Shown here piece after piece: positions 10,322 through 63,919 of a DNA stretch of 64,000 nucleotides. The stretch is taken from contig NZ_CP101125.1 in the NCBI RefSeq assembly GCF_024296925.1, positions 5,954,501-6,018,500 of the forward strand, written 5' to 3'. The notes below the pieces were generated by a model. That model saw only the letters and a program-made list of their open reading frames with translations, was not told the DNA's origin and searched no databases. Position 1 is the first letter of the stretch; the number at the start of each line of letters is the position of its first letter. A program made the position numbers and the translations under genes. Source of the stretch: Pseudomonas nunensis (GTDB taxonomy: Bacteria; Pseudomonadota; Gammaproteobacteria; Pseudomonadales; Pseudomonadaceae).

Positions 10322-10405
10322 TAACTCTCCTAGAGATTGTCGCCTGGCTGACAGAGCGAACACTGTACCCGGGGCATGATCAATCACCCTACAGGAGGAA
10401 TAACA

Positions 10406-10924
10406 ATGAAAAGCCTCGTTGACCATCTCAGTCAATACGCCGCTTACCATCGTGACCCACGCAATATCGCCAGCCACTTTATCGGCATTCCACTGATTGT
10501 GGTGGCGGTGGCGGTTTTACTGTCGCGGCCACAATGGGCCGGCGGCTGGATTTCACCTGCGGTGCTGGTGGCGTTGGCGTCGGCGTGGTTTTACCTGCGT
10601 CTGGAACTGCGCCTCGGGGTGCTGATGACGGTGTTGCTGGGCTTGTGCATTTGGGCGGGTCAGATTCTCGCGCAGCAAAGCACGATGGTCTGGTTGAGCA
10701 GTGGCGTGGGAATGTTTGTGATTGGCTGGGCGATTCAGTTTGTCGGCCATCACTATGAGGGGCGCAAACCGGCGTTTGTCGATGATGTGACGGGGTTGAT
10801 TGTCGGGCCGTTGTTTGTGGTGGCGGAGTTGGCGTTTTTGTTGGGGTTGCGGCGGGATCTCAAGGAGCAGATTGAGGCGCGGGTTGGCGGGGTGAGAATT
10901 AATCCGAATCGCGCTGCGGCGTAG
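10406..10924 (+). CDS. Mpo1-like (DUF962/YGL010w family) membrane protein
   Basis: A 172-residue protein with the hallmark opening YAAYHRDPRNIASHFIGIP and later FVGHHYEGRKPAF of the DUF962 family, whose yeast member Mpo1 is an iron-dependent dioxygenase acting in alpha-oxidation of 2-hydroxy fatty acids. Four hydrophobic segments fit an inner-membrane protein. The start at 10406 follows a strong AGGAGG; the upstream frame to 10376 lacks this. The bacterial substrate is not established. Confidence 0.88.
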   Translation: MKSLVDHLSQYAAYHRDPRNIASHFIGIPLIVVAVAVLLSRPQWAGGWISPAVLVALASAWFYLRLELRLGVLMTVLLGLCIWAGQILAQQSTMVWLSSGVGMFVIGWAIQFVGHHYEGRKPAFVDDVTGLIVGPLFVVAELAFLLGLRRDLKEQIEARVGGVRINPNRAAA

Positions 10925-10927
10925 GAC

Positions 10928-11009
10928 GCCTTCGCGAGCAAGCCCGCTCCCACAGGGGATTTATGTACGCCATAGATCCAATGTGGGAGCGGGCTTGCTC
11001 GCGAAGCTT
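10928..11009. repeat. REP pair, family A
   Basis: Inverted REPs between the convergent Mpo1-like gene and cysA. Confidence 0.88.
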
Positions 11010-11014
11010 TTGCT

Positions 11015-12004
11015 TTAGATGTTGGCGACTTTCTGCCAAACCTTGGGTTTGAAGAACAACGTCTCACCCTTGGCCAAGCCAACCAGGCTGTCGTGATCCT
11101 TCACCACTTCGGCCTCGATCAATTCGCTCTGCCCTTCCACCTTCAACGTCACCCGGGTGGTGGCGCCCAATGGCCGGATATCCCGCACTTCTGCCGCGTG
11201 GTGATCCTCCAGCTCATGCCGCGACAGCGACACTTCGTGCGGGCGGAACAGCACGTGATTGTCGTCGCCCAGGTGCAGACGGTTCGAATCACCGAGGAAG
11301 TGATAAACGAAATCGCTGGCCGGGTTTTCGTAGACGTCGCCCGGTGAGCCGATTTGCTCGATCACACCCTTGTTCATCACCACGATGCGGTCCGCGACTT
11401 CCATCGCCTCTTCCTGGTCGTGAGTCACGAACACGGAAGTCAGGTTGATGTCTTCGTGCAGCCGCGCCAGCCAGCGACGCAGTTCTTTACGGACCTTGGC
11501 GTCGAGAGCACCGAAGGGTTCATCCAGCAGCAACACTTTCGGCTCCACCGCCAACGCGCGGGCCAAAGCAATCCGCTGGCGTTGGCCACCGGACAGTTGC
11601 TCCGGGTAGCGATCCGACAGCCAATCCAGTTGCACCATGTTCAGCAGTTCGTGGACTTTCACCGCGATCTGGCTTTCGCTCGGGCGCTGGTTTTTCGGCT
11701 TCATGCGTAGGCCGAACGCGACGTTGTCGAACACCGTCATGTGGCGGAACAAGGCGTAGTGCTGGAACACGAACCCGACGTTGCGATCACGCACGTCGTG
11801 GCCGGAAACGTCTTCACCGTGGAACACGATGTTGCCCTGGTCCGGGGTTTCCAGGCCGGCGATGATCCGCAGCAGCGTGGTCTTGCCGCAACCGGACGGG
11901 CCAAGCAGCGCCACGAGCTCGCCGCTGTGGATGTCCAGGCTGATGTCGTTCAGGGCCTTGAACGCGTTGAAATTCTTGCTGACGTTACGCACTTCGATCG
12001 ACAT
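11015..12004 (-). CDS. cysA: Sulfate/thiosulfate ABC transporter ATP-binding protein CysA
   Basis: A 329-residue ATPase. Motifs: Walker [11 protein letters not shown]-loop FQHYALF, signature [15 protein letters not shown], Walker [13 protein letters not shown], switch [16 protein letters not shown]. The C-terminal part (about residues 240-329, from [10 protein letters not shown]) is the TOBE-like regulatory extension of CysA/MalK-type ATPases. It powers sulfate import with CysT, CysW and Sbp. GAGGA precedes the ATG, and the gene begins 3 bases after the cysW stop. Last gene of the operon, ending against a REP pair. Confidence 0.96.
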
Positions 12005-48409: not shown

Positions 48410-49381
48410 TCACCGGGCAAGCGCAAGTTTCGGGTCATAAGGCTGGCCCGACTTGAGCACGCCGTAAACGAAGTGCAGCAGCTTGCGCATTGCTGCACAG
48501 ATGATCTGCTTGGGGGCCTTGCCGTTGGCCTTCAAGCGATCCTTCATCGCCATGATCGCCTTGTTATGCTGCAGCGCCACCAGGCCAGGCATGTAAAGGC
48601 CTGCCCGCACGCGCGCTGAGCCGATTTTCGAGATCACGGTGCGGCCTTTGAGCAGTCCCGAGTCCTGTAGCTTGGGGTTCAACCCTGCCGCAGCGACCAA
48701 CTTGCGAGGATCGTCATATTTGCGCAGGTCGCCCAGCTCAGCCAGCAGCCGCTCAAGCGTTTTCTGCCCGATACCGTCGATGGTCACGATCAAGTCGCGC
48801 ATCTCGCGCATATCCGGGTCGTCATCGATGTGTTTTTTGATCGCTTTGTGCGTTTGCGCGATCTCTTTTTCGATATGACGCAGCACGGAGTTGATTGAGC
48901 CTTTGACCTTTTCGTCAGACACCTCCAGACGATTGAGCTCCATTCGTTCCATTTCCTGAAGGTCATCCAGGCGGCGAACCAAGGCTTTCAGCTGGCGATA
49001 CTTCAGAGGCTCCGGCGCCCACAGCTGAAGCTTTTCAGCCTTTTCCCGGGCGAAGTCAGCGATCAGCTTGGCGTCGCTTTTATCGGTTTTGATCCGGCGC
49101 AATTCGCTGCCGGCGTAGGCATGGGTCGTGGCCGGATTGACCACACAGACCCGGTAACCCTTGTTGTAGACGAACTCAGCGAGTTCCAGGTGATAGACAC
49201 TGGTGGCTTCCATCACGATTAGCGCTGAAGGTTCGACCTGCTTCTGCAACCAAGCTTCAAACTCGTTGAAACCCTTGGCGTCGTTAGCCAGTTTGGCTTT
49301 GGTTTTGTGCTTGCCGTTTGGCAAATGTGTAGCGATATCAAAGGTGTTTTTAGCAACATCAACGCCGACGAAACTGGACAT
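48410..49381 (-). CDS. IS110-family transposase
   Basis: A 323-residue DEDD recombinase. The RuvC-like domain begins SFVGVDVAKNTFDIATHLPN, with later acidic residues in VMEATSVYHLELAEF and RIKTDKSDAKLIADFA. A coiled middle part (about 130-190) follows. The C-terminal Transposase_20 domain shows IDGIGQKTLERLLAELGDLR, LVAAAGLNPKLQDSG and the Ser-containing ISKIGSARVRAGLYMPGL. ATG 49381 follows GGAGACGGTC; the frame upstream to 49549 is the non-coding end. The gene is intact. Confidence 0.95.
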   Translation of the reverse strand: MSSFVGVDVAKNTFDIATHLPNGKHKTKAKLANDAKGFNEFEAWLQKQVEPSALIVMEATSVYHLELAEFVYNKGYRVCVVNPATTHAYAGSELRRIKTDKSDAKLIADFAREKAEKLQLWAPEPLKYRQLKALVRRLDDLQEMERMELNRLEVSDEKVKGSINSVLRHIEKEIAQTHKAIKKHIDDDPDMREMRDLIVTIDGIGQKTLERLLAELGDLRKYDDPRKLVAAAGLNPKLQDSGLLKGRTVISKIGSARVRAGLYMPGLVALQHNKAIMAMKDRLKANGKAPKQIICAAMRKLLHFVYGVLKSGQPYDPKLALAR

Positions 49382-49399
49382 GACCGTCTCCCCAATTAG

Positions 49400-49618
49400 A
49401 TCCCTTGCGATCATCACTGCACTCTGTCCAACCTTGTGAATGCGGGCTCTCGCCAGAGACGGGCCCAAGATACCGTTCGAACTGTACGAGTGAGTGTGGA
49501 GGGCTGGAGCACAATCTACGTCACAGGCAAAAAGCCTAAGGAGCTGCACGGCTTCCAGGTCCCTCCCTCGATGATCAGTCGAGAACTATCGCTCCTGACG
49601 GAGCGATAGTCGAGATAC
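49400..49618 (-). ncRNA. Candidate bridge RNA of the IS110 element
   Basis: The 5' non-coding end of the element. A hairpin with stem AAGCC/GGCTT (49532-49536, 49550-49554) has a 13-base loop that contains AAGGAGCTGC (49538-49547), identical to the sequence at the right element/REP junction (49619-49628). A target-guide loop of an IS110 bridge RNA should look like this. A second strong hairpin, CTATCGCTCC-TGAC-GGAGCGATAG (49586-49609), lies at the element end. RNA ends are not known. Confidence 0.5.
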
Positions 49619-50603: not shown

Positions 50604-51548
50604 TCAAACCTGCCGATCATTTTCCAGCGCCAGATACGGCCCCCGCGCCCAACGCTCTACCCGCTCAACCAAAAGCGCCGAAGCCTCGCGCCGCTTGCTG
50701 TCACTGTCCCCGACAAACACTTCCGACGGCTGCTTGGCATGCCGCCCAACCGCCGCAAACACCCGCTCTCGCTGCACATCATCCAGCCCAAAAAACCCGG
50801 CCAACCGCCCCGCCATGGCCCCTGGCAACTCACTGTAATTCACCGCCAACCCGCCAAACTCACGGCATTGCGCCAACCCCAAACCCAACAACCGCCCCAA
50901 CCGTCGCGCGATGTAATCCTCACGGCTATCGGAGGCCAAATCATCATCCAACCCGCTAGCCCCAATCATCCCCGGCACCATATGCATCCCCGGCCGGCGC
51001 AGATGGGAAACGGCAATTTCCAGCGGATCGCGGTACAAAAACATCCAGGGCGTCTCAGGAAAACACTCACGCAACAGCGGCAGTTCAGCAATGTTCCACG
51101 CATCGAGTTTGATCACCAACCGTTGCTCCGAACCTCCGCGACGCTGGCCATAAGCGGACATCAACCCTTCAATCGCCCTACGCCGTTCAGCCGCCGGCAA
51201 ATCACTGCGCAGCAACGCATCGAGCGGCGGCGCTTCGCTGATAACGATGTGATCATCAAGCCGCGCAAGCATCTGACTGATCAACGTCGACCCGCACCGC
51301 GACGCGTGAAAGATAAACGCACTCGGCGCCAATCCCGGACTCATCACCTGCCAATCACTAAGAACAGCCAACGGCGTTTGCCGACGAAACGCCTGGTTAA
51401 ACGGCAGCCGCAGCGCATCATCTACAGCCTCGCGAAAAAACGGCTGATGCAGCGGCGTATCACCGAACCAACACCAATCCACCAGCCATTCGCCGGCCTG
51501 CTGCCAGACCCGAATCGGCAACCAACCTTCCAGGTTCAGGCGTTCCAT
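50604..51548 (-). CDS. PAPS-dependent sulfotransferase-like protein (second of the operon)
   Basis: A 314-residue protein. Residues 1-70 form a separate N-terminal part (VWQQAGEWLVDWCWFGD). The sulfotransferase P-loop for the PAPS 5'-phosphosulfate is FHASRCGSTLIS (about 80-91). The 3'-phosphate site is probably MFLYRDPLEIAVSHLRR (about 170-186), with Arg and Ser as in the family. It overlaps the upstream oxygenase gene by 13 bases. Last gene of the operon and, with the APS kinase two genes upstream, likely supplied with PAPS locally. Acceptor unknown; the giant repeat protein is the natural candidate (inference). Confidence 0.83.
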   Translation of the reverse strand: MERLNLEGWLPIRVWQQAGEWLVDWCWFGDTPLHQPFFREAVDDALRLPFNQAFRRQTPLAVLSDWQVMSPGLAPSAFIFHASRCGSTLISQMLARLDDHIVISEAPPLDALLRSDLPAAERRRAIEGLMSAYGQRRGGSEQRLVIKLDAWNIAELPLLRECFPETPWMFLYRDPLEIAVSHLRRPGMHMVPGMIGASGLDDDLASDSREDYIARRLGRLLGLGLAQCREFGGLAVNYSELPGAMAGRLAGFFGLDDVQRERVFAAVGRHAKQPSEVFVGDSDSKRREASALLVERVERWARGPYLALENDRQV

Positions 51549-52321
51549 TGTTCATTCCATTGGCGACGACCGTTGCGCATCGCGGCGCGCAGTTCTTCGC
51601 GGGAAAACACCAGGCCTCGCTCAGCCGCCATCTCTAAAACGCGGGCGACGAAAACCTCTGTATCCACCAAGCCCTGCAACGCTTTCGAAAGCTGCGGATC
51701 ACTGGCCACTAAGCGCTGAAATTGCAGCAAAGCCCCGTCCCCACCATCAGGCGCAGGCGTGGTCGGCAGACCATCGACAATCGCCTGCTCCAACCAAGGA
51801 CCAGGACGGCAATCCAGCACCAAATGAACCCGCGCCGAACAATCGCGATTGTCCACGCGATGCGGCCGCGACAAATCAAGAAACCAACACTCCCCCGCCG
51901 CCATCGGCATGCGCTGGCCATCGAGCATAAAGTCCACCTGAGGCGGACTCAGCAGCGGAATATGCAGGCGCAAATCGGCCCCCGGCTCGCCCAGGTCATA
52001 ATCGCGATGTTCATGAATTTGCCCGCCCGGACCGAGCCGCAACAGGCGCGCCGAAACGATGTCCAGCGGCAGGTCGCGCAAGCCTTGCTGCCAGCGCACA
52101 TCCCGCCGCCACGGCGCACGCACCAACGGTGCACCAAGACCCGGCGACAATTCGGTCAACGCATCCGCCGCCGAAATCAGCGCCACGCCGCTCCAGTCGC
52201 CGGCGAAATAAGCCGTGTTGAAATGACCGTGCCACTCGTCTTCGCCAATCGCCGCCAGCGCCTGCAACAGCAACGGTAGATCCACCGTTACTGGCAGGCG
52301 AGAGAACGCGGCTCGACTCAT
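51536..52321 (-). CDS. Aspartyl/asparaginyl beta-hydroxylase-like Fe(II)/2-oxoglutarate oxygenase
   Basis: A 261-residue protein whose first 190 residues carry the AspH-type double-stranded beta helix: HEHRD at 103-107 with iron ligand His, LHIPLLSPPQVDFMLDG, and the distal His154 in DLSRPHRVDN followed by RVHLVLDC. These motifs mark aspartyl/asparaginyl beta-hydroxylases and related LPS/peptide hydroxylases. The last 70 residues form a separate helical part. The ATG at 52321 overlaps the cysC stop (ATGA), so it is translationally coupled to cysC. It presumably hydroxylates a protein or peptide in this pathway; substrate unproved. Confidence 0.85.
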   Translation of the reverse strand: MSRAAFSRLPVTVDLPLLLQALAAIGEDEWHGHFNTAYFAGDWSGVALISAADALTELSPGLGAPLVRAPWRRDVRWQQGLRDLPLDIVSARLLRLGPGGQIHEHRDYDLGEPGADLRLHIPLLSPPQVDFMLDGQRMPMAAGECWFLDLSRPHRVDNRDCSARVHLVLDCRPGPWLEQAIVDGLPTTPAPDGGDGALLQFQRLVASDPQLSKALQGLVDTEVFVARVLEMAAERGLVFSREELRAAMRNGRRQWNEQWNA

Positions 52322-52923
52322 CGTTGTGGCAGCACCGAACATTCACCGAGCCAGGTCAGCAAGCGGTCAAGACAGGCCTCCACCGACTGCCCGCCGGTGT
52401 CGAGCACCAGCGACGCGGACGGCGGCGATTCGTAAGGCGCGGAGACGCCGGTGAAACCCGCCAGATCGCCGCGACGGGCGCGGGCGTAATGCCCCTTCGG
52501 GTCGCGCTGCTCGCACACCGCCAGGGAGGCGCTGCACCAGACTTCGCGGTAATCCTCGCCGAGGCGTTGGGCAAACATCTCCCGCAGTTCCACCAGCGGC
52601 GCAATCATCGCCAGGATCACAATCTGCCCGTTCTCCACCAGCAACGCGGCCAGTTCACTGGCGCGGCGGATGTTTTCCTGACGATCGCTGTCGGTAAAGC
52701 CCAAATCGCGATTGAGCCCGACCCGCAGCCCGTCGCCGTCGAGCACCACGCTTTGCACGCCGCGTTCGAACAACGTGGCGTGCAGCGCCTGGGCCAGGGT
52801 TGATTTGCCCGCCGCCGGCAAACCGGTCAGCAAAATCGCCGTGCCGCGATGGCCGTTGCGGGCCTCGCGTTGGGCACGGCTGATGCTGGCGGTCGGCGCC
52901 AGTAAATTACTGGGCCGGGGCAT
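52318..52923 (-). CDS. cysC: Adenylylsulfate (APS) kinase CysC
   Basis: A 201-residue stand-alone APS kinase making PAPS from APS and ATP. Walker A GLPAAGKST is at 34-42, then VVLDGDGLRVGLNRDLGFTD, SDRQENIRRASELAALL and DPKGHYARARRGDLAGFTGV, all hallmark segments. Standard length for the family. ATG 52923 overlaps the end of the TolC-like gene by 17 bases; a longer frame to 53022 lies wholly inside that gene. Pseudomonads assimilate sulfate through APS reductase and do not need PAPS for cysteine, so a kinase next to two sulfotransferases is best read as their dedicated donor supply. Confidence 0.94.
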   Translation of the reverse strand: MPRPSNLLAPTASISRAQREARNGHRGTAILLTGLPAAGKSTLAQALHATLFERGVQSVVLDGDGLRVGLNRDLGFTDSDRQENIRRASELAALLVENGQIVILAMIAPLVELREMFAQRLGEDYREVWCSASLAVCEQRDPKGHYARARRGDLAGFTGVSAPYESPPSASLVLDTGGQSVEACLDRLLTWLGECSVLPQR

Positions 52924-54424
52924 GGGCCGCCACCGGCACCGCAATGTTGCCCGACGCCCACGCCGCTTCGCGATTGGCCAACGCGGTGGCGATGGACTGG
53001 ACTTGAGTGGATTGCACTTCATCCGGCATCGGGTCGAGCCCGGCGCTGGCGAAGATCTGGCCGTAGGCGTTACGCAGATCGGCGTAGGACAGGTCCCGGC
53101 GCAAATCCGCCTGCAAGGTGTTCAGTTCACCCTGGATCAAGTCCAGTTCGCCGATGCCGGCCGCCTGGTGACGGTTACGCAACTGGCCGAGGATCTGCCC
53201 GTCGATGCTCGACAGTTCCTGGTTGGTCTGGAACTGATGCAGCGCTTCCTGATAGTTGGCGTTGGCCACGTAGAGCTGCGCCAGCACGGCGATGGACATC
53301 GCCTGACGACGGGCCTTGGCCACTTCTTCGCCGGCCTTGGCCACGTTGATCGCCGCCGGGGCAGAAATCACGTTGAACAGGTTCCAGGTCAATTTCACGC
53401 CGTAGTCGGCCCACTTGTCGTTGACCAAAAACGAGTTGCTGTCGTAGTGCCCGCCGGCCGAAAACTCGATCCCTGGCAACAACCGCAACATGGCTTTGCG
53501 GGTTTCAGCGGTGCTGATACGCGTCTGGTAATCCTGCTCGCGCAGTTCTGGACGACTGGCCAGCGCCTCGTGTTCGAGGCTGGCCATGCCGACTTTCAGT
53601 TGCGGAATGGTGTAGTCATCCGGCGTCGCCAATTTCAGATCGGTGCCCATCGGCAGGTTGATCAGGGTCGACAGTTCGGTCTTTGCCAAGGACAACGCGC
53701 GGCGCTGCTCCTGCAACTGACGGGTCGCCTCGATCAGCGAGCGCTGGTAACCCAACGCCACGACCGGGTCGCCGATGCGTTGTTCGCTCATGCTCTGGCT
53801 GTTGTTGCGCGCGGTATCGACCCGCGCCATCAGGCTGTCGATTTGCGTAAGCAAGCGTTCGGCGGCCACTGCGCGCCAATAGGCCGAGCGCACGTCCTGA
53901 ACGATCGTGTTGATCACTTTGCGCCGGCGTTCCTGAACGATCAGGCGCTGGTCACCCTGCTGCTTGGCGCTGATGTAGCTGACGCCGAAGTCGAGGACGT
54001 TCCAGACCATGGTCAGGTCAGCCACGCGACGGTCGCGGTCCTGGGAAGTCGACGGTTCCAATGACTGGGTGCCGGTGAGCACGCTCTGGCTACTGGAAGC
54101 GCCGACGTTGCTACGTCCGACATAGCCTGCATCCAGGGCCATGCGCGGCAGCATGTCGAAACTGGCGAGGTCGAGTTGGCGTTTGGCCAAAGCCTCTTCC
54201 ATGATCTTGAGCCGGCCTTCTAGGTTGTACTTCACCGCGCGGGCCATCGCCTGGTGCAAGGTCAACGGACCGCTGAGCGGTTCCTGACCTGTGTACATCG
54301 TCTGCATATCGCTTTTGGCACGTTGCTCGCTGACGCTGCGTTCAATCGGTTCACTTTTGACCGCACATCCGCTGATCGCCAGCGCCAGCAGGCTGGCGCC
54401 GAATAACTTATGACTTCTTTTCAT
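52907..54424 (-). CDS. TolC-family outer-membrane lipoprotein, probable type I secretion channel
   Basis: A 505-residue outer-membrane factor. Lipobox AISGCAV (acylated Cys20). Two OEP repeats are visible: LTLHQAMARAVKYNLEGRLK with NTIVQDVRSAYWRAVAAERL, and SLEHEALASRPELREQDYQT with INVAKAGEEVAKARRQAMSI. It differs from the NodT efflux channel at 39813 and lies 43 bases after the giant repeat protein, so it is the likely exit channel for that protein. No ABC exporter or HlyD adaptor gene is present in the window to complete a type I system. Confidence 0.9.
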   Translation of the reverse strand: MKRSHKLFGASLLALAISGCAVKSEPIERSVSEQRAKSDMQTMYTGQEPLSGPLTLHQAMARAVKYNLEGRLKIMEEALAKRQLDLASFDMLPRMALDAGYVGRSNVGASSSQSVLTGTQSLEPSTSQDRDRRVADLTMVWNVLDFGVSYISAKQQGDQRLIVQERRRKVINTIVQDVRSAYWRAVAAERLLTQIDSLMARVDTARNNSQSMSEQRIGDPVVALGYQRSLIEATRQLQEQRRALSLAKTELSTLINLPMGTDLKLATPDDYTIPQLKVGMASLEHEALASRPELREQDYQTRISTAETRKAMLRLLPGIEFSAGGHYDSNSFLVNDKWADYGVKLTWNLFNVISAPAAINVAKAGEEVAKARRQAMSIAVLAQLYVANANYQEALHQFQTNQELSSIDGQILGQLRNRHQAAGIGELDLIQGELNTLQADLRRDLSYADLRNAYGQIFASAGLDPMPDEVQSTQVQSIATALANREAAWASGNIAVPVAAHAPAQ

Positions 54425-54467
54425 CCCTGGATCGCCCCTAGGTGCCGCACTGAATTATGTGTGTGTT

Positions 54468-57400
54468 TCAAGCCTGCATTTCGCTGATGCCGACTTGTTG
54501 CAAAGCCGCGGCCAGGCTGTTGACCTGCCGTTGCTCGGTGTCTTTGATTTCTTGTAGTTGCTGACTCAGGCTCGGCGCGCCAAACACGCCGCGCAGGCCT
54601 TGGGCAGCGTCGCCGCCACGAATCGAATGACTGCCGAAACTGTTCAGCGAATCGCGCTCGGCGCTGGTGTCCTGATTGAACAGGCTCGACAACGTACTGG
54701 TGCTGAACACACCGCCATCGCCGCCACCAAACCCGAGGAAGCCGTGGCCCGAACCATCGCCCGTGCCGCTGTCGCTGCTGCTGAACACCTGGGCAATAAA
54801 GCTCGGCGCCAGCGCCCCGCGGTTGATGAAGATGTCGCCCAATGGCCGGATGCCGTCCCCCAGCACCCGGTCTTCGAACAACGGCGCAAACGTCAGCGGC
54901 GAGGCCAGCGTGCCGGTTGGCGCGGCGAAGATGACCGGTTGCAGCGGCAGGTGCGGCTGGTCAGGAACGGTCACGGGTTGCGAGACGCGGAACTCCGGAT
55001 CCGGCGGCACCACCACAATCGTCGCCGACGGTGCCGGCACGGTGTTGATCGCGTAACCGTTCGATTGGCTGGTGCCGCTGCCGGCGTTGCCCGAGCCGTC
55101 CGTCACGCCCGCGACGTTCAGGCTGATCGCGTTATTGGCGTTGCTCAGGTTGCTGGTCGGCGTCAGGGTCGCGGTCCAGGTTTTGCCACCGTCGTTGCTC
55201 GACAGGTTAGACAAAGTGCCGTTGGCCACGTTGACGTCGGACAGGTCGAAACCGCTCACTGCTTCGTTGAAGGTGAAGGTCACCAGAGAGGTCTGGCCCA
55301 CGCCCAGGTTCGGGTTGGCCACAACGACCGTGGCGGTCGGCCGCTCGCCGTCGATCACGTAGTTGTTGGACACCGCCACGCCATCGCCGGTGTTACCCGC
55401 CAGGTCGCTGACGTTGCTGGTGTCCAGCGCGATGAAGTTGCTCGGGTCGGTGATGTTGGCGGTCGGCGTGAAGGTGCCGATCCAGGTCTTGCCGCCGTCG
55501 CTGCTGGCCAGGTTGGTCAGTTCGCCGTTGGTCACGCTGAGGTCCGACAGGTCGAAGTTGTTCACCGCTTCGCTGAAGGTGATCGTCACCAGCGTAGTCT
55601 GGCCCATGCCCAGGTTCGGGTTGGCGACCACGATGGTTGCGGTCGGCCGCGTGGCATCGAGCGCGTAGTTGTTGGAGATCGCGATCCCGGCGCCAGCATT
55701 GCCGGCGGCGTCCGCGACATTGCTGCTGTCGAGCAGGATCAGGTTGGTGGTGTCGTTGATGTTGGCCGTCGGGGTCAGGGTCGCCGTCCAGGTTTTGCCG
55801 CCGTCACTGCTGAGCAGGTTGGACAGGTTACCATTGGCGACGCTGAGGTCCGACAGGTCAAAACCGGATACCGCTTCGGTGAAGGTGATGGTGACCGTGG
55901 TGGTCTCGCCGATGCCCAAGCGGTTGTCCGCCACCACGATGGTCGCGGTCGGCCGCGCGGTGTCGATCGCGTAGTTGTTGGAATTGGTCACACCCACGCC
56001 GCTGTTGCCCGAACCGTTGATCACGCCGGTGTTGTCGAGGCTGATCAGGTTGGTGGTGCCGGTCACGTTGGTGGTCGGGGTGAAAGTCGCGGTCCAGGTG
56101 ATACCGCCGTCGCTGCTGCTGACATTGCTCAACGTGCCGTTGGCGATGGTCAGGTCGGCGTTGGTGAAACCGCTGACGGCTTCGCTGAAGGTGATGGTCA
56201 CCGCCGACGTTTCACCGGCCTTGAGGGCGTTGTCGGCGACCACGATGGTCGCGGTCGGCAAGCTGGTTTCTACCACGTAGTTGGCGGAATCGGTGGTGCC
56301 TGCGCCCGCGTTACCGGCCACATCGGCGATGCCGGTGTTGTTGAGGGTGATCACGTTGGTCGCGTCCGTCACACCAATGGTCGGGGTGAAGGTCGCGGTC
56401 CAGGTAATGCCGCCGTCGCTGCTGCTCACCGCACTCAAGGTGCCGTTGGCGATGGTCAGGTCACTGTTATCGAAACCGCTGACCGCTTCGCTGAAGGTGA
56501 TGGTCACCAGCGAGGTTTCGCCCGGTTTCAGGGTGGTGTCGCTCAACACGATGGTGGCGGTTGGGCGCTGGCTATCGACGGCGTAATTATTCGAATCGGT
56601 GGTGCCGCTGCCAGCGTTGCCGGACAGATCCTGCACGCCAGTATTGTCCAGGCGCACGATGTTGCTGGTGTCGGTGATGCCGGCCAACGGCGTCAACGTG
56701 GCTGTCCAGGTAATCCCGCCGTCGCTGCTGCTGACGTTGCTCAGGGTGGCGTTGTCGATAGTCAGGTCGCTGTTATCGAAACCGCTCACCGCTTCGCTGA
56801 AGGTGATGGTCACCAGCGTGGTCTGGCCGACGCCCAAGGCTGGATCGGCCACGACGATGGTCGCGGTCGGACGCTGGGTGTCGATGGCGTAGTTGTTGGA
56901 GTCGGTGGTGCCGCTACCGGCGTTGCCCGAGGCGTTTTGTACGCCAGTGTTGTCCAGAGTGATCAGGTTGGTCGCATCGGTGATCGCGCTGGTCGGCGTA
57001 AACGTTGCCGTCCAGGTAATGCCGCCGTCACTGCTGCTTACCGCCGTGAGTGTGCCGTTAGCGATGGTCAAATCGGCATTGCTGAAACCGGTCACGGCTT
57101 CAGAGAAGGTCACGGTCACCAGCGAGGTTTCACCGATGTTCAGCGAGGTATCCGCGACCACTATGGTGGCCGTCGGCAGCACGGTGTCGATGGTGAAGTT
57201 GGCCGAGTTGGTGGTACCGGTGCCCGTGTTGCCGGCAATGTCGGTCACCCCGGTGTTGTTCAGGACGATCAGGTTGGTGGTGTCCTTGACGCCGACTGTC
57301 GGGGTGAAGGTCGCGGTCCAGGTAATCCCACCGTCACTGCTGCTCACCGCACTCAAGGTGCCATTCGGCACGCTCAAATCGCTGTTGTCGAAACCGCTGA

Positions 57401-60400
57401 CCGCTTCACTGAAAGTGATAGTCACCAGCGAAGTTTCGCCCGCGCTCAGGGTCGGATCGGCGACCACGATGGTCGCGGTCGGACGCAGGCTGTCGATCAC
57501 GTAATTGTTGGAATCGGTAGTGCCCGAACCCGCGTTGCCGGCCAGGTCCGCGACACCGGTGTTGTCCAGCGTAATGAGGTTGGTCGCGTCGTTGATGCTC
57601 GCGGTCGGGGTGAAAGTCGCGGTCCAGGTCACGCCGCCGTCGCTGCTGCTGACGGCGGTCAATGTGCCGTTGGCGATGCTCAGGTCGGCGTTGGTAAAAC
57701 CGCTCACCGCTTCGCTGAACGTGATGGTCACCAGCGAGGTTTGGCCCGCCGCCAGGGTTGGGTCGGCCACCACAATGGTCGCGGTTGGACGCTGGGTGTC
57801 GATGGCGTAGTTGTTGGAGTCGGTGGTGCCGCTACCGGCGTTGCCCGAGGCGTTTTGTACGCCAGTGTTGTCCAGAGTGATCAGGTTGGTCGCATCGGTG
57901 ATCGCGCTGGTCGGCGTAAACGTTGCCGTCCAGGTAATGCCGCCGTCGCTGCTGCTTACCGCCGTGAGTGTGCCGTTGGCGATGGTCAAATCGGCATTGC
58001 TGAAACCGGTCACGGCTTCAGAGAAGGTTACGGTCACCAGTGAGGTTTCACCGATGTTCAGCGCAGTGTCGGCAACCACGATGGTGGCGGTCGGCAGCAC
58101 GGTGTCGATGCTGAAGTTGGCCGAGTTGGTGGTGCCGGTGCCCGTGTTGCCGGCAATGTCGGTCACCCCGGTGTTGTTCAGGGTGATCAGGTTGGTGGTA
58201 TCCCGCACGCCCACTGTCGGCGTGAAAGTTGCGGTCCAGGTGATGCCGCCGTCGCTGCTGCTCACCGCACTCAAGGTGCCATTCGGCACGCTCAAATCGC
58301 TGTTGTCGAAACCGCTGACCGCTTCGCTGAAAGTGATGGTTACCAGCGAAGTTTCGCCCGCACTCAGGATCGGGTCGGCGACCACGATGGTGGCGGTCGG
58401 ACGCAGGCTGTCGATCACGTAGTTGTTGGAATCGGTGGTGCCCGAGCCAGCGTTGCCGGCCACGTCCGCGACACCGGTGTTGTCCAGCGTGATGAGGTTG
58501 GTCGCGTCGTTGACGCTCGCGCTTGGCGTGAAGGTCGCGGTGTAGGTGATGTTGTCGCTGGTGGTCAGGCCGGAAAGGGCGCCGTTCGCGACAGTGAAGT
58601 CGGCGAGGGTCAGGCCGGTCACCGCTTCGCTGAAGGTGATGGTCACCAGCGAGGTTTGACCCGCCGCCAGGGTTGGGTCAGCCACCACGACAGTCGCGGT
58701 TGGACGCACGGTGTCGATGGCGTAGTTGTTGGAATTGGTAGTGCCGCTGCCGGCGTTACCCGAGGCGTTTTGTACGCCAGTGTTGTCCAGGGTGATCAGG
58801 TTGGTCGCGTCGGTGATGGCGCTGGTCGGTGTAAACGTCGCTGTCCAGGTAATGCCGCCGTCGCTGCTGCTCACGGCGGTGAGTGTACCGTTGGCGATGG
58901 TCAGATCGGCGTTGCTGAAACCGGTCACGGCTTCAGAGAAAGTCACTGTCACCAGCGAGGTTTCACCAATGTTCAGCGCGTTGTCCGCGACCACGATGGT
59001 CGCCGTCGGCGCCACGGTATCGATGGTGTAATTGCCGGAGTTGGTGGTGCCCGCGCCGGCGTTGCCAGCCAGGTCAGCCACGCCGGTATTGGCCAGGGTG
59101 ATGACGTTGGTCGCGTCATTGATGCCGGCAGTCGGGGTGAAAGTCGCAGTCCAAGTGATGCCACCGTCGCTGCTGCTCACGGCGGTCAACGTGCCGTTGG
59201 CGATGCTCAGGTCGGCGTTGGTGAAACCGCTGACCGCTTCGCTGAAGGTGATGGTCACCAGCGAGGTTTCGCCGGCACTCAGGGTCGGGTCGGCCAGGAC
59301 GATAGTCGCGGTTGGGCGCACGGTATCGATGGCGTAGTTGTTGGAATCGGTGGTGCCGCTGCCGGCGTTACCCGACGTGTCGCTGATCCCGGTGTTGTTC
59401 AGGGTGATCAGGTTGGTCGCGTCAGTGATGCTGGTGGTTGGCGTGAAGGTCGCGGTCCAGGTGATACCGCCGTCGCTGCTGCTCACCGCCGTCAGCGTAC
59501 CGTTGGCGATGCTCAGGTCAGCGTTGGTGAAACCGGTCACGGCCTCGCTGAAGGTGATAGTCACCAGCGAGGTTTCGCCGATTCTCAGCGCGTTGTCCGC
59601 CACTACGATGGTTGCCGTTGGGCGCACGGTGTCGATGGCGTAATTATTGGAATCGGTGGTGCCCGTGCCGGCGTTGCCCGCCGTGTCGCTGACCCCGGTG
59701 TTGTCCAGGGTGATCAGGTTGGTCGCGTCGTTGATGCTGGCGGTTGGTGTGAACGTCGCGGTCCAGGTGATGCCGCCGTCGCTGCTGCTCACCGCGGTGA
59801 GCGTGCCGTTGGCAATCGTCAGATCAGCGTTGGTGAAACCGGTCACGGCTTCGCTGAAGGTGATGGTCACCAGCGAGGTTTCGCCGATTTTCAGCGCATT
59901 GTCGGCCACGACGATGGTTGCGGTCGGGCGCTGGGTGTCGATCGCGTAGTTGTTGGAGTTGGTCGTACCGGTGCCGGCATTGCCGGACAGGTCCTGCACG
60001 CCGGTGTTGGCCAGGGTGATCAGGTTGGTGGAGTCATTGATGCTGGCGGTTGGGGTGAAGGTCGCCGTCCAGGTGATACCGCCGTCGCTGCTGCTCACGG
60101 CGGTGAGTGTGCCGTTAGCGATGGTCAGGTCGGCGTTGGTGAAACCGCTCACGGCCTCGCTGAAGGTGATGGTCACCAGCGAGGTTTCGCCAATGCTCAG
60201 CGCGTTGTCGGCCACGACGATGGTCGCGGTCGGGCGCACGGTGTCGATCGCATAGTTGTTCGAATCAGTGGTGCCGGTACCGGTGTTGCCGGCCGTGTCG
60301 CTGATCCCGGTGTTGGCCAGGGTGATCAGGTTGGTCGTGTCATTGATGCTGGCGGTCGGCGTGAAGGTCGCCGTCCAGGTGATGCCGCCGTCACTGCTGC

Positions 60401-63020
60401 TCACGGCCGTAAGCGTGCCGTTGGCGATGGTCAGGTCGGCGTTGGTGAAACCGGTCACAGCCTCGCTGAAGGTGAAGGTCACCAGCGAGGTTTCGCCGAT
60501 TTTCAGCGCGGTGTCCGTCACCACGATGGTCGCCGTCGGGCGCTGGGTGTCGATCGCGTAGTTGTTCGAGTTGATCACACCGAGCCCGGCATTGCCGGAC
60601 AGATCCTGCACGCCAGTCTTGTCCAGGGTGATCAGGTTGGTGGTGTCAGTGATGCCGGCGGTCGGCGTGAAAGTCGCGGTCCAGGTGACGCCGCCGTCGC
60701 TGCTGCTCACCGCCGTCAACGTGCCGTTGGCGATGGTCAGGTCGGCGTTGGTGAAACCGGTCACGGCTTCGCTGAAGGTGATGGTCACCAGCGAGGTTTC
60801 GCTGCTGTTGAGCGCGGTGTCCGCGACCACGATGGACGCGGTCGGCGCCACGGTGTCGTGGATCACGTAGTTGTTGGAGGTGCCGGAACCGGTGCCGACG
60901 TTGCCCGCCAAGTCCTGCACACCGGTGGTGTCGAGGGTAATGGCGTTGGTCGGTGCATTGATATTGCCCGCCGCCGTCAGGGTCGCGGTCCAGGTGATGC
61001 CGCCGTCGCTGCTGCTGACTGCGCTCAGCGTACCGTTGGCCACGGTCAGGTCGGCGTTGGTGAAATTGTTCACGGCCTCACTGAAAGTGATGGTCACCAG
61101 CGAGGTGCCGCCGGAGTTCAGGTTGGTGGTGCCGACCACGATGCTCGATACGGTCGGCGGGGTCACGTCCGGTGCGTAGTTGGTATTGAGCGTGCCGCCG
61201 TCGTTGAAGATGTTGCTGACAGCGGCCGGAGAGCTGCCGGTGCCGCCGCCGCCCGATGCCTGTCCGCCCGAACCGCTGCCGCCGGCATTGCCGGCCATGG
61301 CGCCGAAGTTGGCCGCCGTCATCAACAGCGTGCCTTTGTTCCAGATCGCGCCGACGCCTTTGCCGCCCGCGCCACCTGGGTCACTGGAACCGCCGTTGCC
61401 ACCACCGCCGCCACCGCCACCACCGGCCGCGACGTTGTTGGAGATCACCGACGTACCGACGACCGTCAGGGTGCCGGTGGAAGCGTTGTAGATGCCGCCG
61501 GCTGCCGAAGAACCGGCCCGGCCGACCTTGTCCCAACCGGAGCCACCGCCGCCACCGCCAATGGACACGGTGCCGTTGGTCGCCGTGCCACCGTTGCCGC
61601 CGTTACTGTAGTTGGAAGCGCCGAGGCCGCCAGCACCGCCGGTGGTCGTACCGCCGTGACCGCCCATGTAATTGGAGTTGTAGGTACCGCCATTACCGCC
61701 ACTGCCCGCCCCGCCGGCCGTACCGGCATACACACCAGTGCCGAAACCGGCGGTGCCGCCATGACCACCGGTTTGACCACCCAGTGCACCGCCACCGCCA
61801 CCGCCGCCACCAACCGCACCGCCGACATAAGGAGCGGTGACACCACCGCCGCCACCGCCGCCCGAGGCCGCGTTATCGGTCACCGTGACGTTTCTGAGGG
61901 TCAGGTTGCCGGAGTTAAGAATACCGCCGCCCATCGCCCCGGCGCCGTCCGTACCCGCCGCCGCGCCTACACCGGCCACCATGCCCTGCTTGATGACCAG
62001 GCCATCGAAGGTCGCGGTGACGCCGGAGTTCACCTGCAGCACGCGGGTTTTGTACTGACCGTTAAGGGTGACGTCGGCAACGCCGTCGTTATTCAGGTCA
62101 CCATCAATCGTGACGTTCTTGGTGATGGTCAGCTGCGTGTTCAGCCCGACGATCATGCTGGTGTTGAAGGTGACGGTGTCACCGGCCACGGCATTGGACA
62201 GGGCGGTACGCAAAGAACCCACGCCGCTGTCGCTGTTATTGAGCACGGTCACCGTCGCCAGGCTGTACTGGTAACCGGCCATGGACGCGTCGGACAACAC
62301 GCTGCGGCTTTCGATGCTGCCGGTGGTGATTTCCAGGTTCCAGTCGCCGCCCACACCGGTACGGTTGGTGGACGCGGCAATATCGCGGCCGGTGAGTTGC
62401 GCCAGCGAATCGACAAAACTCACGCCACGCTCACCTTCGCCGGTATTGCAGGCGTAGATCAGGATGTCGCCACCGACGTTCATATCCTTGCCGATCTGCG
62501 CCAGCACGTCGCTACGCGCGGCGACGTTATCCGCCGACAGGTAGCTGTTGCCCAGCCACAGGTCGCCGGAATAGCCGTGGGCGATGATCTGCACCGAGCT
62601 CACGCCCTGATGGGTGTCGAGGTAAGCGGCGATCTGCTGCAAGCCGTCCTTGCTGGCATCCAGTGTCACCACTTCGGTGCCCGGTGCCACGCCGTTGAGC
62701 AGGCTGTCGGTGTCTTTGATGCGTGAATCGACGAACACCACGCTCTGGCCGGGTACGGCAGTAGGTGTTGCCGCAGGTGCGGAGGTCGCGGCGGAGGCGT
62801 TGTCCGCCTGGCCATGCGTGTCTTTGCTGGCGGTCGGGTGATCGGCCGCTGGCGGCTTGGCAGCGTCAGCCGTGGGGTGACTGTCGGGCTGGGCCGCATC
62901 GGCCACGGTGGCCGCAACCGCGCCGTCGAACAGCATGCGCGGTTCCAGGGACATGATCATCGGCGATGCCAGCACGCGAGCGCCCTGGGCCTTTTTCGAC
63001 TTGCCGTTGTTCCACCACAT
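54468..63020 (-). CDS. Giant secreted repeat protein: LEPR motif, DUF4347, Gly-rich region, 20 Ig-like repeats
   Basis: A 2850-residue protein. Order: short N-terminus with MSLEPRMLFDGA (LEPR motif at 25-28, found on large surface proteins), an Ala/Pro/Thr linker, DUF4347 (about 92-250, with His148 and Cys191), a beta-helix-like stretch (SGVGSLRTALSNAVAGDTVT), a very Gly-rich region (about 380-600), then 20 tandem Ig-like repeats of about 102 residues (consensus ETSLVTITFSEAVTGFTNAD ... SSDGGITWTATFTP ... SNNYAID) and a unique C-terminus of about 190 residues. No signal peptide and no RTX nonapeptides. ATG 63020 follows GGTGAG; the frame above it overlaps the upstream gene. Likely a type I-secreted adhesin. 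Confidence 0.9.
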   Translation of the reverse strand: MWWNNGKSKKAQGARVLASPMIMSLEPRMLFDGAVAATVADAAQPDSHPTADAAKPPAADHPTASKDTHGQADNASAATSAPAATPTAVPGQSVVFVDSRIKDTDSLLNGVAPGTEVVTLDASKDGLQQIAAYLDTHQGVSSVQIIAHGYSGDLWLGNSYLSADNVAARSDVLAQIGKDMNVGGDILIYACNTGEGERGVSFVDSLAQLTGRDIAASTNRTGVGGDWNLEITTGSIESRSVLSDASMAGYQYSLATVTVLNNSDSGVGSLRTALSNAVAGDTVTFNTSMIVGLNTQLTITKNVTIDGDLNNDGVADVTLNGQYKTRVLQVNSGVTATFDGLVIKQGMVAGVGAAAGTDGAGAMGGGILNSGNLTLRNVTVTDNAASGGGGGGGVTAPYVGGAVGGGGGGGGALGGQTGGHGGTAGFGTGVYAGTAGGAGSGGNGGTYNSNYMGGHGGTTTGGAGGLGASNYSNGGNGGTATNGTVSIGGGGGGSGWDKVGRAGSSAAGGIYNASTGTLTVVGTSVISNNVAAGGGGGGGGGNGGSSDPGGAGGKGVGAIWNKGTLLMTAANFGAMAGNAGGSGSGGQASGGGGTGSSPAAVSNIFNDGGTLNTNYAPDVTPPTVSSIVVGTTNLNSGGTSLVTITFSEAVNNFTNADLTVANGTLSAVSSSDGGITWTATLTAAGNINAPTNAITLDTTGVQDLAGNVGTGSGTSNNYVIHDTVAPTASIVVADTALNSSETSLVTITFSEAVTGFTNADLTIANGTLTAVSSSDGGVTWTATFTPTAGITDTTNLITLDKTGVQDLSGNAGLGVINSNNYAIDTQRPTATIVVTDTALKIGETSLVTFTFSEAVTGFTNADLTIANGTLTAVSSSDGGITWTATFTPTASINDTTNLITLANTGISDTAGNTGTGTTDSNNYAIDTVRPTATIVVADNALSIGETSLVTITFSEAVSGFTNADLTIANGTLTAVSSSDGGITWTATFTPTASINDSTNLITLANTGVQDLSGNAGTGTTNSNNYAIDTQRPTATIVVADNALKIGETSLVTITFSEAVTGFTNADLTIANGTLTAVSSSDGGITWTATFTPTASINDATNLITLDNTGVSDTAGNAGTGTTDSNNYAIDTVRPTATIVVADNALRIGETSLVTITFSEAVTGFTNADLSIANGTLTAVSSSDGGITWTATFTPTTSITDATNLITLNNTGISDTSGNAGSGTTDSNNYAIDTVRPTATIVLADPTLSAGETSLVTITFSEAVSGFTNADLSIANGTLTAVSSSDGGITWTATFTPTAGINDATNVITLANTGVADLAGNAGAGTTNSGNYTIDTVAPTATIVVADNALNIGETSLVTVTFSEAVTGFSNADLTIANGTLTAVSSSDGGITWTATFTPTSAITDATNLITLDNTGVQNASGNAGSGTTNSNNYAIDTVRPTATVVVADPTLAAGQTSLVTITFSEAVTGLTLADFTVANGALSGLTTSDNITYTATFTPSASVNDATNLITLDNTGVADVAGNAGSGTTDSNNYVIDSLRPTATIVVADPILSAGETSLVTITFSEAVSGFDNSDLSVPNGTLSAVSSSDGGITWTATFTPTVGVRDTTNLITLNNTGVTDIAGNTGTGTTNSANFSIDTVLPTATIVVADTALNIGETSLVTVTFSEAVTGFSNADLTIANGTLTAVSSSDGGITWTATFTPTSAITDATNLITLDNTGVQNASGNAGSGTTDSNNYAIDTQRPTATIVVADPTLAAGQTSLVTITFSEAVSGFTNADLSIANGTLTAVSSSDGGVTWTATFTPTASINDATNLITLDNTGVADLAGNAGSGTTDSNNYVIDSLRPTATIVVADPTLSAGETSLVTITFSEAVSGFDNSDLSVPNGTLSAVSSSDGGITWTATFTPTVGVKDTTNLIVLNNTGVTDIAGNTGTGTTNSANFTIDTVLPTATIVVADTSLNIGETSLVTVTFSEAVTGFSNADLTIANGTLTAVSSSDGGITWTATFTPTSAITDATNLITLDNTGVQNASGNAGSGTTDSNNYAIDTQRPTATIVVADPALGVGQTTLVTITFSEAVSGFDNSDLTIDNATLSNVSSSDGGITWTATLTPLAGITDTSNIVRLDNTGVQDLSGNAGSGTTDSNNYAVDSQRPTATIVLSDTTLKPGETSLVTITFSEAVSGFDNSDLTIANGTLSAVSSSDGGITWTATFTPTIGVTDATNVITLNNTGIADVAGNAGAGTTDSANYVVETSLPTATIVVADNALKAGETSAVTITFSEAVSGFTNADLTIANGTLSNVSSSDGGITWTATFTPTTNVTGTTNLISLDNTGVINGSGNSGVGVTNSNNYAIDTARPTATIVVADNRLGIGETTTVTITFTEAVSGFDLSDLSVANGNLSNLLSSDGGKTWTATLTPTANINDTTNLILLDSSNVADAAGNAGAGIAISNNYALDATRPTATIVVANPNLGMGQTTLVTITFSEAVNNFDLSDLSVTNGELTNLASSDGGKTWIGTFTPTANITDPSNFIALDTSNVSDLAGNTGDGVAVSNNYVIDGERPTATVVVANPNLGVGQTSLVTFTFNEAVSGFDLSDVNVANGTLSNLSSNDGGKTWTATLTPTSNLSNANNAISLNVAGVTDGSGNAGSGTSQSNGYAINTVPAPSATIVVVPPDPEFRVSQPVTVPDQPHLPLQPVIFAAPTGTLASPLTFAPLFEDRVLGDGIRPLGDIFINRGALAPSFIAQVFSSSDSGTGDGSGHGFLGFGGGDGGVFSTSTLSSLFNQDTSAERDSLNSFGSHSIRGGDAAQGLRGVFGAPSLSQQLQEIKDTEQRQVNSLAAALQQVGISEMQA
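55050..61170 (-). repeat. Tandem array of 20 repeats of about 306 bases inside the giant gene
   Basis: Stops and starts of shadow frames recur every 306 bases across this span (one unit is 3 bases short), giving 20 units. Units 8-10 and 11-13 counted from the N-terminus repeat as blocks of three, so part of the array arose by duplication of 918-base blocks. Confidence 0.9.
61170..61890 (-). repeat. Glycine-rich low-complexity coding region
   Basis: Runs of GGN codons encode stretches of up to nine glycines broken by Ala, Thr, Ser and Asn. It lies between the beta-helix-like region and the first Ig-like repeat; composition resembles glycine-rich surface proteins. Confidence 0.85.
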
Positions 63021-63073
63021 GCTGCTCACCCGAACTCGAACTTTTATGACTGCCAAGAAAAAGCCGCGATCAA

Positions 63074-63919
63074 TTAATTGATCGCGGCGTCGGATTTCAT
63101 ACGAATGACATTGGCGGCGCTGGAGGACCCATCGTGCCAAAAGGAAAGCTCAGCATATTTGTCGAACAAGTCCGGCGGCAGGATCGTGCGCCGTGACTCC
63201 AATGCAACCTTGGGCTTGACCCGATGCAACCCCGAGACGCCGAGGGCCTGGTCAAACTCCGGCGCGTCGTAGACGAGGTTATCGAAGTCATGCTCGAACC
63301 ACGGCTCGCCAATGAATTCGTAGACCAGCCGAAGGACCCTTTCGGGCGCCTGACTGAGCAGGTCGTAATCGACAATCAGCAAGGACTCGGCGTTTTCGCC
63401 GTAGTAGGCTTCCTTGAGCGCGGTCCAGGCGAAACCCACCAGGCGATTGCGCTGGGCCAGGGTTTCACAACGGCTGTAGACGGTGTTGCGCTCGACTTCG
63501 TCGTTGAACAGCTTGGTGTTCTCGAACGGGTTGGCGCGGTAGAGGCGCTCGAGGCTGTCCATCACCCAGGCGACGTTGCGCACACAGGCAATGGTTTTGG
63601 CCTTGGGAAACAGGTCCTGCAACGCGGGCAGGCGCGAACACCACTGGCGATTGGTATCGAAGACGACGGGTTTGTCGGCCTGGTCGGCGTAGTAGGAGTC
63701 GAACAACCCGCGCAACAGACGGCGACGCAATGGCGTGTCGATGACCGAGCCAAATTCGCTGCCGGCGCTGCATTGTTCGAGAACGCTGGTAAAGAGGGTG
63801 CCAACAGGGCTGCTCATGCCGGCATGAAAGCGTGGGTTTTGCAGCAAAATAGCCGCCAGCAGGGTAGAACCTGAGCGTGGCAGCCCGGATATAAAGTGAT
63901 ACTGCTGCAATCCCTTCAC
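63074..63919 (-). CDS. PAPS-dependent sulfotransferase (first gene of the operon)
   Basis: A 281-residue sulfotransferase. The PAPS 5'-phosphosulfate loop PRSGSTLL is at residues 14-21, directly after the first strand (YHFISGL). The 3'-phosphate segment is IACVRNVAWVMDSLERLYRA (about 108-127), with Arg and Ser in family positions. LRLVYEFIGEPWFEHDFDNL follows near the end. The whole resembles small protein/tyrosine-type sulfotransferases more than the carbohydrate ones, but that is an impression. GTG start at 63919 with AAAGGGA about 12 bases upstream. It precedes the giant protein gene by 53 bases. Confidence 0.87.
   Translation of the reverse strand: MKGLQQYHFISGLPRSGSTLLAAILLQNPRFHAGMSSPVGTLFTSVLEQCSAGSEFGSVIDTPLRRRLLRGLFDSYYADQADKPVVFDTNRQWCSRLPALQDLFPKAKTIACVRNVAWVMDSLERLYRANPFENTKLFNDEVERNTVYSRCETLAQRNRLVGFAWTALKEAYYGENAESLLIVDYDLLSQAPERVLRLVYEFIGEPWFEHDFDNLVYDAPEFDQALGVSGLHRVKPKVALESRRTILPPDLFDKYAELSFWHDGSSSAANVIRMKSDAAIN

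Follow-up and report, generated by a model that had tools for sequence, protein, structure and literature searches.

The window analysed here comprises 64,000 nucleotides (positions 5954501-6018500) of the single-contig 7.33 Mb genome of Pseudomonas nunensis and contains an operon in which the gene of an AspH-like Fe/2-oxoglutarate oxygenase (AspH) is followed by that of a sulfotransferase (ST2). Our sequence comparisons indicate that AspH and ST2 probably act as a two-step modification pair for small tail-collar proteins of the same locus (PF07484, MdpB-like). Four patterns were observed: the genes are linked, ST2 occurs only together with AspH, fusions of AspH with sulfotransferases exist, and the presence of AspH covaries with the last residue of the collar. 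From these patterns we infer hydroxylation of the collar Asn, sulfation of the product and export of the collar.

In the proposed pathway, AspH would most likely hydroxylate the C-terminal Asn of the collar (...P-S-R-N), and ST2 would sulfate the new hydroxyl using 3'-phosphoadenosine-5'-phosphosulfate (PAPS), the supply of which would be topped up for ST2 by the CysC kinase of the operon. The collar gene lies inside a locus that also encodes HlyD, GAF-HlyD, PqqD-M50-HlyD and TolC proteins and a giant immunoglobulin (Ig)-repeat protein, so that the modified collar probably partners the giant protein and would work with it at the cell surface. The other sulfotransferase of the operon (ST1) would modify a separate target, possibly the giant protein or a glycan on it. 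Both cosubstrates, PAPS and 2-oxoglutarate, occur in the cytosol, and visual inspection gave no obvious signal peptide for AspH, ST1, ST2 or the collar; modification should therefore precede export.

Covariation of AspH with the last collar residue

The collar gene of the P. nunensis locus lies on stretch L005, which reads past the right edge of the window (its position 1 is window position 63500). Its product (L005:2377-3003) has the features by which we recognised collars of this type, namely a single N-terminal PF07484 domain, a length of about 165-230 residues and an end of the form P-x-R-x. Collars were counted if their open reading frame (ORF) lay inside its locus and the collar match, 120-260 residues long, stopped no more than 25 residues short of the end. 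A collar fragment truncated by an edge (L071 0-290) was left out, and six Asn-ending background rows (G175, G255, G083 and three of G142) were omitted from the AspH-negative group because they belonged to AspH-positive genomes that had been fetched twice.

Asn was the last residue in all complete collars from AspH-positive genomes (51/51, from 43 genomes or records) versus 11/67 collars from 35 AspH-negative genomes. Among 174 alignment columns, the last one ranked first (p 1e-21), and the next column reached 4e-9. After clustering at 50% identity, the collars ended in Asn in 18/18 versus 5/40 cases, with p 0.006 for the next column. The same was seen inside the Pseudomonadaceae (34/34 with AspH versus 3/12 without) and outside this family (17/17 versus 8/55). 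The endings of the AspH-positive collars were PSRN (43), PTRN, PPRN and PARN (2 each), PSQN (1) and PIRN (1). A re-scan of 38 genomes for AspH, in which all candidates were scored, matched just two controls and the fusion-type genome G261; 6 of the 35 AspH-negative genomes are less than 90% complete or more than 5% contaminated, and an AspH gene could be hidden in these.

On a collar tree from which the three C-terminal residues had been omitted, the AspH status changes 22 times. Greedy selection of edge-disjoint pairs on the best tree, using branches of any support, gave 22 pairs, with 17 for the association, 0 against it and 5 ties; well-supported branches alone yielded 7 pairs, of which on average 5.5 favoured the association and none contradicted it (median p 0.03, range 0.03-0.125). 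In three close relatives without AspH (G004, G021, G100), the collars end in Asp, Gly and Ser, respectively, and in G076, where AspH is located on another contig, the collar ends in Asn. We predicted in advance that collars not encoded beside AspH would end in Asn in G308, G316, G326, G434 and G436, and 6/6 of this type (two in G326, one in each of the other genomes) ended in PSRN. In G308, the collar gene adjoins ST2 and is separated from AspH by 10 kb; the rest lie on contigs other than that of AspH or more than 500 kb from it. Collar-domain ORFs of another type, namely L226, L229 and L235 as well as the ones of G029, G036, G037, G044, G070 and G076, were left out of this test, and the extra stretch of G018 contained no ORF of this kind.

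The two genes are also close neighbours. In 24 of 40 AspH genomes searched (out of 54 then known), AspH and a collar gene start within 15 kb of each other, compared to 0.28 expected, and outside the Pseudomonadaceae this was the case in 5/20 genomes (0.13 expected). The GNAT, exporter and giant genes of the locus do not explain the Asn, because they are also present in AspH-negative loci whose collars have other last residues.

AspH, ST2 and their fused homologues

AspH scored 51 bits against the PF05118 profile (cut-off 22.6). Its residues H112-x-D114, H161 and R171 are invariant in 7 sequences and show the same pattern as in PDB 4p7w; we take the HxD...H residues to be iron ligands and the Arg to bind 2-oxoglutarate. 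The best solved match of the AspH profile was L-proline cis-4-hydroxylase (PDB 4p7w, 1e-15), and a Nif11 protein was also matched (0.0011). A protein C-terminus, with its free carboxylate, may mimic the free amino acids bound by such oxygenases. AspH thus shares the fold family, the iron site and the Arg with other PF05118 oxygenases (4p7w and the AspH enzyme proper), but differs from them in being tied to the last residue of a partner protein and to a sulfotransferase, and in its Nif11-like C-terminal region.

In ST2, an SRCGST PAPS loop and Glu105, 21 residues after Arg84, are invariant in 11 sequences, and this spacing is presumably that of the protein-tyrosine sulfotransferases (TPST). The only solved match was insignificant (E 0.89). 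A profile search (A3), which scored no more than 39 candidates in any genome, detected ST2 in 12/15 AspH-positive genomes, and in 0/34 AspH-negative and 0/5 fusion-type genomes, except for one partial 46-bit hit (G194). In G316, G317 and G436, the AspH-positive genomes without ST2, the collars of this type still end in Asn, so that the presence of AspH follows the Asn and that of ST2 follows AspH. At the sequence level, this distribution is the pattern expected of a hydroxylate-then-sulfate order of reactions.

Fusions were found in a distant AspH clade, in which 7/9 proteins scanned are joined to a Sulfotransfer_3 domain. Relatives of a 630-residue homologue combine PF05118 and PF13469 in one chain in 120/120 cases (the best 120 of 2833), and the names seen among these 120 gave no function. 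Tentatively, and with somewhat less than even confidence, we suggest a new modification, in which the C-terminal Asn of the collar would be hydroxylated and then O-sulfated and the fused PF05118-PF13469 enzymes would do likewise on other surface proteins, for example those encoded beside TonB receptors or IPTL-CTERM proteins. If the chemistry is proven for the present pair, it would offer a first lead for these numerous fused homologues.

Among the stretches with more distant AspH relatives, TonB receptors were seen in L139, L147 and L151, and one is annotated in L067. AspH is unfused in L139 and L151, with a gene for a TPR-sulfotransferase near by, and in L065 an IPTL-CTERM protein is encoded beside an AspH-sulfotransferase fusion.

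Composition and distribution of the locus

The window contains the following genes:

63074..63919, minus strand: ST1, sulfotransferase of 281 residues with a GTG start (Pfam Sulfotransfer_3, 1.3e-14)
54468..63020, minus strand: giant LEPR/DUF4347/Big_12 protein of 2850 residues from the ATG at 63020 (DUF4347, 1.7e-51)
62253..62741, minus strand: DUF4347 domain of the giant protein, with His-Gly and Tyr-Gly/Ala-Cys motifs present in 23/23 giants inspected
52907..54424, minus strand: TolC/OEP-like lipoprotein (Pfam OEP, 3.7e-38)
52318..52923, minus strand: CysC, adenosine phosphosulfate (APS) kinase for PAPS synthesis, accessory (Pfam APS_kinase, 5e-51)
51536..52321, minus strand: AspH-like Fe/2-oxoglutarate oxygenase (Pfam Asp_Arg_Hydrox, 1.9e-13) with a C-terminal Nif11-like region (weak, 4.8e-4, below the Pfam cut-off)
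50604..51548, minus strand: ST2, sulfotransferase (sub-threshold Sulfotransfer_3, 24 bits versus a cut-off of 27)
48410..49549, minus strand: IS110-family transposase (Pfam), outside the system and 1.1 kb downstream of ST2

The giant protein carries an LEPRMLFDG motif near its N-terminus, and Big_12 domains were assigned by Pfam in 20 stretches. A first-pass annotation of the window had described the six ORFs from ST1 to ST2 as one operon. An ORF check and Pfam searches bore out their position, strand and spacing, the starts at 63919, 63020, 54424, 52923, 52321 and 51548 leaving gaps of 53 and 43 bases and overlaps of 17, 4 and 13 bases. The operon on the minus strand is therefore real, but the row of genes extends beyond ST1 and out of the window:

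L005 598-2445, same strand as the operon: PMT_2/GT39-like protein
L005 2377-3003, opposite strand: collar protein (PF07484, 3.6e-24), ending in FPSRN
L005 3059-3370, opposite strand: DUF6916 protein (27.4 bits versus a cut-off of 27)
L005 3363-3881, same strand: GNAT protein
L005 3899-5995, same strand: PqqD/M50-HlyD fusion of 698 residues with an HEFGH motif
L005 5996-7315, same strand: GAF-HlyD protein of 439 residues
L005 7312-8094, same strand: further HlyD protein

The labels GAF and PqqD-like are our reading of the sequence, and Pfam assigned HlyD and M50 only. The M50-HlyD membrane protein consists of a PqqD-like start, an M50 region with HExxH and an HlyD domain. A Pfam scan of 7 window and 9 upstream proteins, which did not extend to ORFs further off, revealed no ATP-binding cassette (ABC) transporter or ATPase, and the M50-HlyD system is possibly an exporter that works without one.

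The arrangement goes beyond chance and is conserved in other Pseudomonas genomes, as the first-pass annotation had proposed to check. The operon also occurs in P. fluorescens FW300-N2E3 (L034), a soil laboratory strain; a collar gene would lie outside the stretch examined. A scan for AspH with one genome per species gave 47 loci, 42 of which show the order TolC-(CysC)-AspH-ST2 (AspH is split over two frames in L049). The remaining five contain CysC-AspH-ST2 (L048, L052) or AspH-ST2 (L051, L053, L054). CysC, which had been counted as an operon member and is one here, lies between TolC and AspH in 32 of the 42 loci, but the other 10 have no CysC ORF, and we dropped it as a fixed part of the system.

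In 119 Pseudomonas genomes, we detected AspH in 31, the TolC protein in 59, ST1 in 34 (E up to 1e-60) and M50-HlyD in 58. M50-HlyD was present in 58/59 genomes having this TolC or a relative of it, and both AspH (31/31) and ST1 (34/34) were confined to genomes with TolC and an M50-HlyD relative. The sole ST1 match in G092 is a 48% relative located 33 kb from TolC, and the TolC/M50-HlyD partners in G066 and G114 are 37% relatives. These counts include shared descent, and the Fisher values for co-occurrence are not probabilities, because the species share genes by descent.

Profile searches of individual loci revealed a modular structure. Three loci (L096, L098, L103) have just HlyD, GAF-HlyD, M50-HlyD, the giant protein and TolC, and L099 has this core and ST1 alone. 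L092 and L093 contain ST1 and CysC without AspH-ST2. In L087 and L088, which are without ST1 and CysC, AspH-ST2-GNAT-collar lies between M50-HlyD and the giant gene, and the same arrangement was seen up to the stretch end in L085, L125 and L126. AspH-ST2 thus occupies two sites of one locus, either after TolC or between M50-HlyD and GNAT/collar. ST1 and AspH-ST2 are therefore separate modules; the exporter, the giant protein and TolC form the core, and the modifying enzymes are variable extras.

Relatives of AspH (profile A1) were found in 19/397 genomes of the phylum and 9/370 of the class, with the genome of the window included in both; 6-7 candidates were scored per genome in these scans, and AspH genes may have been missed. 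In eleven of the resulting loci (L125-L135), ST2 adjoins AspH in seven (L125-L131) and lies about 9 kb away in L133; none was present in the stretches of L132, L134 and L135. Collar and GNAT genes are located near AspH in L125, L126, L129 and L131 as well as in the separate loci L054, L066 and L089, and a DUF6916-like gene was seen in L054, L066, L089, L129 and L131. In L054, a Chromatiales metagenome-assembled genome, AspH-ST2 is found beside collar, DUF6916-like and GNAT genes, and L066 (Pseudoalteromonas) has AspH and no ST2 in its stretch. L127, L128 and L130 have AspH-ST2 without a collar in their stretches.

Two alphaproteobacterial loci (L129:7400-16686 and L131:1273-10223) encode AspH, ST2, an HprK-like kinase, a lasso-cyclase-like AsnSyn protein, three collars, GNAT and a DUF6916-like protein, and L131 additionally carries a Sulfotransfer_1 gene. 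In L051 and L053 (around 10000-11700), AspH-ST2 ends clusters which by eye resemble type VI secretion and not the giant-protein locus.

Alternative targets and related systems

The first-pass annotation had proposed that the operon makes a sulfated giant surface protein. The two sulfotransferases, the PAPS-making kinase and the oxygenase do stand together in one export locus, and modification of some protein of this locus is likely, but the giant protein as the sulfated target was not supported. In ST1, the PAPS-binding loop GLPRSGST is invariant in 12 sequences, and the best solved matches were protein-tyrosine sulfotransferases 1 and 2 (6/6 at E up to 0.1); the profile search also gave weaker NDST and polyketide-synthase sulfotransferase chains. 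ST1 has Ser36 at the place of what we take to be the catalytic Glu of TPST, 21 residues after the loop Arg. The alignment is ungapped there, with the loop and the Glu seen aligned with ST1. ST1 thus resembles TPST1/2 in its matches and differs in this Ser, where ST2 has Glu. Counting acidic residues up to 5 positions away, none of the 33 tyrosines of the window giant has more than 2. A tyrosine with 3 or more was found in 2/14 giants beside ST1 versus 8/15 without ST1, several giants being cut by stretch ends. In a search for a domain common to ST1-positive giants, 5/8 of those listed (window, L092, L093, L028, L032) had a GSLRxAL start among their first 310 residues; it was missing in L099, L089 and L079 and was seen at that place in none of 15 other giants. 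The five are close relatives, and the motif was not used as proof. We therefore rejected the giant protein as a proven sulfation target, since the search for acidic tyrosines gave nothing in its favour and GSLRxAL could not serve as proof.

The giant LEPR/DUF4347 protein may nevertheless be what is sulfated (and hydroxylated), with the collar covariation secondary, but we regard this as unlikely. ST1 may act on the giant: its gene was directly upstream of the giant gene in 37/37 cases seen, it resembles the TPSTs in its solved matches, and ST1 and AspH are confined to genomes with the exporter. Against this stand the Ser at the presumed catalytic position and the lack of residue-level evidence in the giants, which also occur where the locus encodes none of these enzymes (L096, L098, L103). 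AspH tracks the last residue of the collar, and in stretches of other classes (L054, L129, L131) AspH-ST2 is accompanied by collars without an LEPR giant. The two DUF4347 motifs of the giants resemble the dyad of clan CD cysteine proteases, and DUF4347 may cut the giant protein during export.

A number of findings weigh against a collar-directed AspH-ST2 pair. In L135 (G317), a 2230-residue cadherin/Big-repeat frame lies right beside collar and AspH, so that a giant protein is possible as partner or target, in line with the alternative just described. In L048, L051, L052 and L053, the stretches contain AspH-ST2 but neither a collar nor a giant gene, and 15/20 AspH genomes outside the Pseudomonadaceae have no collar within 15 kb. 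The AspH-negative genomes G007, G077 and G113 retain Asn, as do 8/55 collars from other AspH-negative genomes, and G113 is a near relative; Asn does not need AspH, because Asn-ending collars occur in AspH-negative genomes. Genomes with fusion-type AspH do not follow the rule, with Asn in 2/11 collars. In the prediction test, two collar ORFs did not end in Asn, L226 (G316), a 341-residue frame with more than one collar-like stretch, and the phage-like L229 (G326); both were set aside after they had been seen, and the result is 6/8 if they are counted. Finally, the solved structures closest to AspH are those of proline hydroxylases, and the penultimate Arg of the collar is also enriched (50/51 with AspH versus 43/67 without). 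The oxidised residue could thus be a neighbouring Pro, Arg or Ser, with the Asn as a tag. That AspH oxidises the nearby Pro or Arg and ST2 sulfates this residue, or the Ser two before the Asn, appears improbable to us, because it is the last column that is most strictly tied to AspH and the Ser is not kept in all AspH-positive collars, as the PTRN, PPRN, PARN and PIRN endings show.

AspH and ST2 might also act on an envelope lipid, a glycan or a small molecule, with the collar covariation arising through co-inheritance of the gene set. PF05118 presumably includes hydroxylases of lipids and free amino acids, a GT39-like enzyme is encoded in the locus, and the alphaproteobacterial loci contain HprK-like and lasso-cyclase-like AsnSyn genes. 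Co-inheritance is hard to square with Asn-ending collars far from AspH, with the differing last residue in close relatives without AspH and with the fact that none of the other 173 columns gave a signal of similar strength, which makes this explanation highly improbable. A modification pair of AspH and ST2 for the collar is thus the reading we prefer.

In what is admittedly a narrow view, RaxX is essentially the only case of protein sulfation known in bacteria. The AspH-ST2 locus would offer a second route in soil pseudomonads, with a candidate substrate, residue and expected mass shift, and it provides an approach to this type of collar protein, to DUF6916 and to a possibly ABC-free exporter of giant proteins. 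We know of no published report of an AspH-ST2 collar pathway from the open-access literature, in which we found nothing on a sulfotransferase with DUF4347, a sulfated adhesin, a fused sulfotransferase/asparaginyl beta-hydroxylase or the combination collar/DUF6916/GNAT. The locus resembles LapA-type type I adhesin systems in having TolC-like and HlyD-like genes alongside that of a giant Ig-repeat protein, but has the M50-HlyD fusion and the GAF-like HlyD protein instead of an ABC ATPase among the proteins scanned.

The comparison with Xanthomonas Rax made in the first-pass annotation holds only as an analogy. RaxX is the 60-residue precursor of a tyrosine-sulfated peptide, and RaxA and RaxB belong to a predicted type I system (PMC6637879). 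RaxX-RaxSTAB and the present locus thus share a protein sulfated, or here putatively sulfated, by a PAPS sulfotransferase that is encoded beside exporter genes (PMC6637879). In contrast to Rax, the P. nunensis locus has an oxygenase and a dispensable CysC, and its candidate site is the C-terminal Asn of a collar; none of its proteins that were scanned is an ABC exporter. The loci L129, L131 and L152 resemble Pontixanthobacter clusters with a run of sulfotransferase, aspartyl beta-hydroxylase, PqqD, AsnSyn-related, lasso B2 and nucleotidyltransferase genes, which are listed as co-occurring with halotolerance; the passages on these clusters propose no substrate (PMC10040529).

Elsewhere in the P. 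nunensis genome, stretch L006 (genome 5613000-5629000) encodes a second, stand-alone APS kinase (genome 5620845-5621291) near a Sulfotransfer_2-like gene (HVPKCAGSS, by eye) and an HldE-like gene, a gene set that may serve a sulfated lipopolysaccharide core. A third APS kinase match in the genome lies within a frame of 635 residues.

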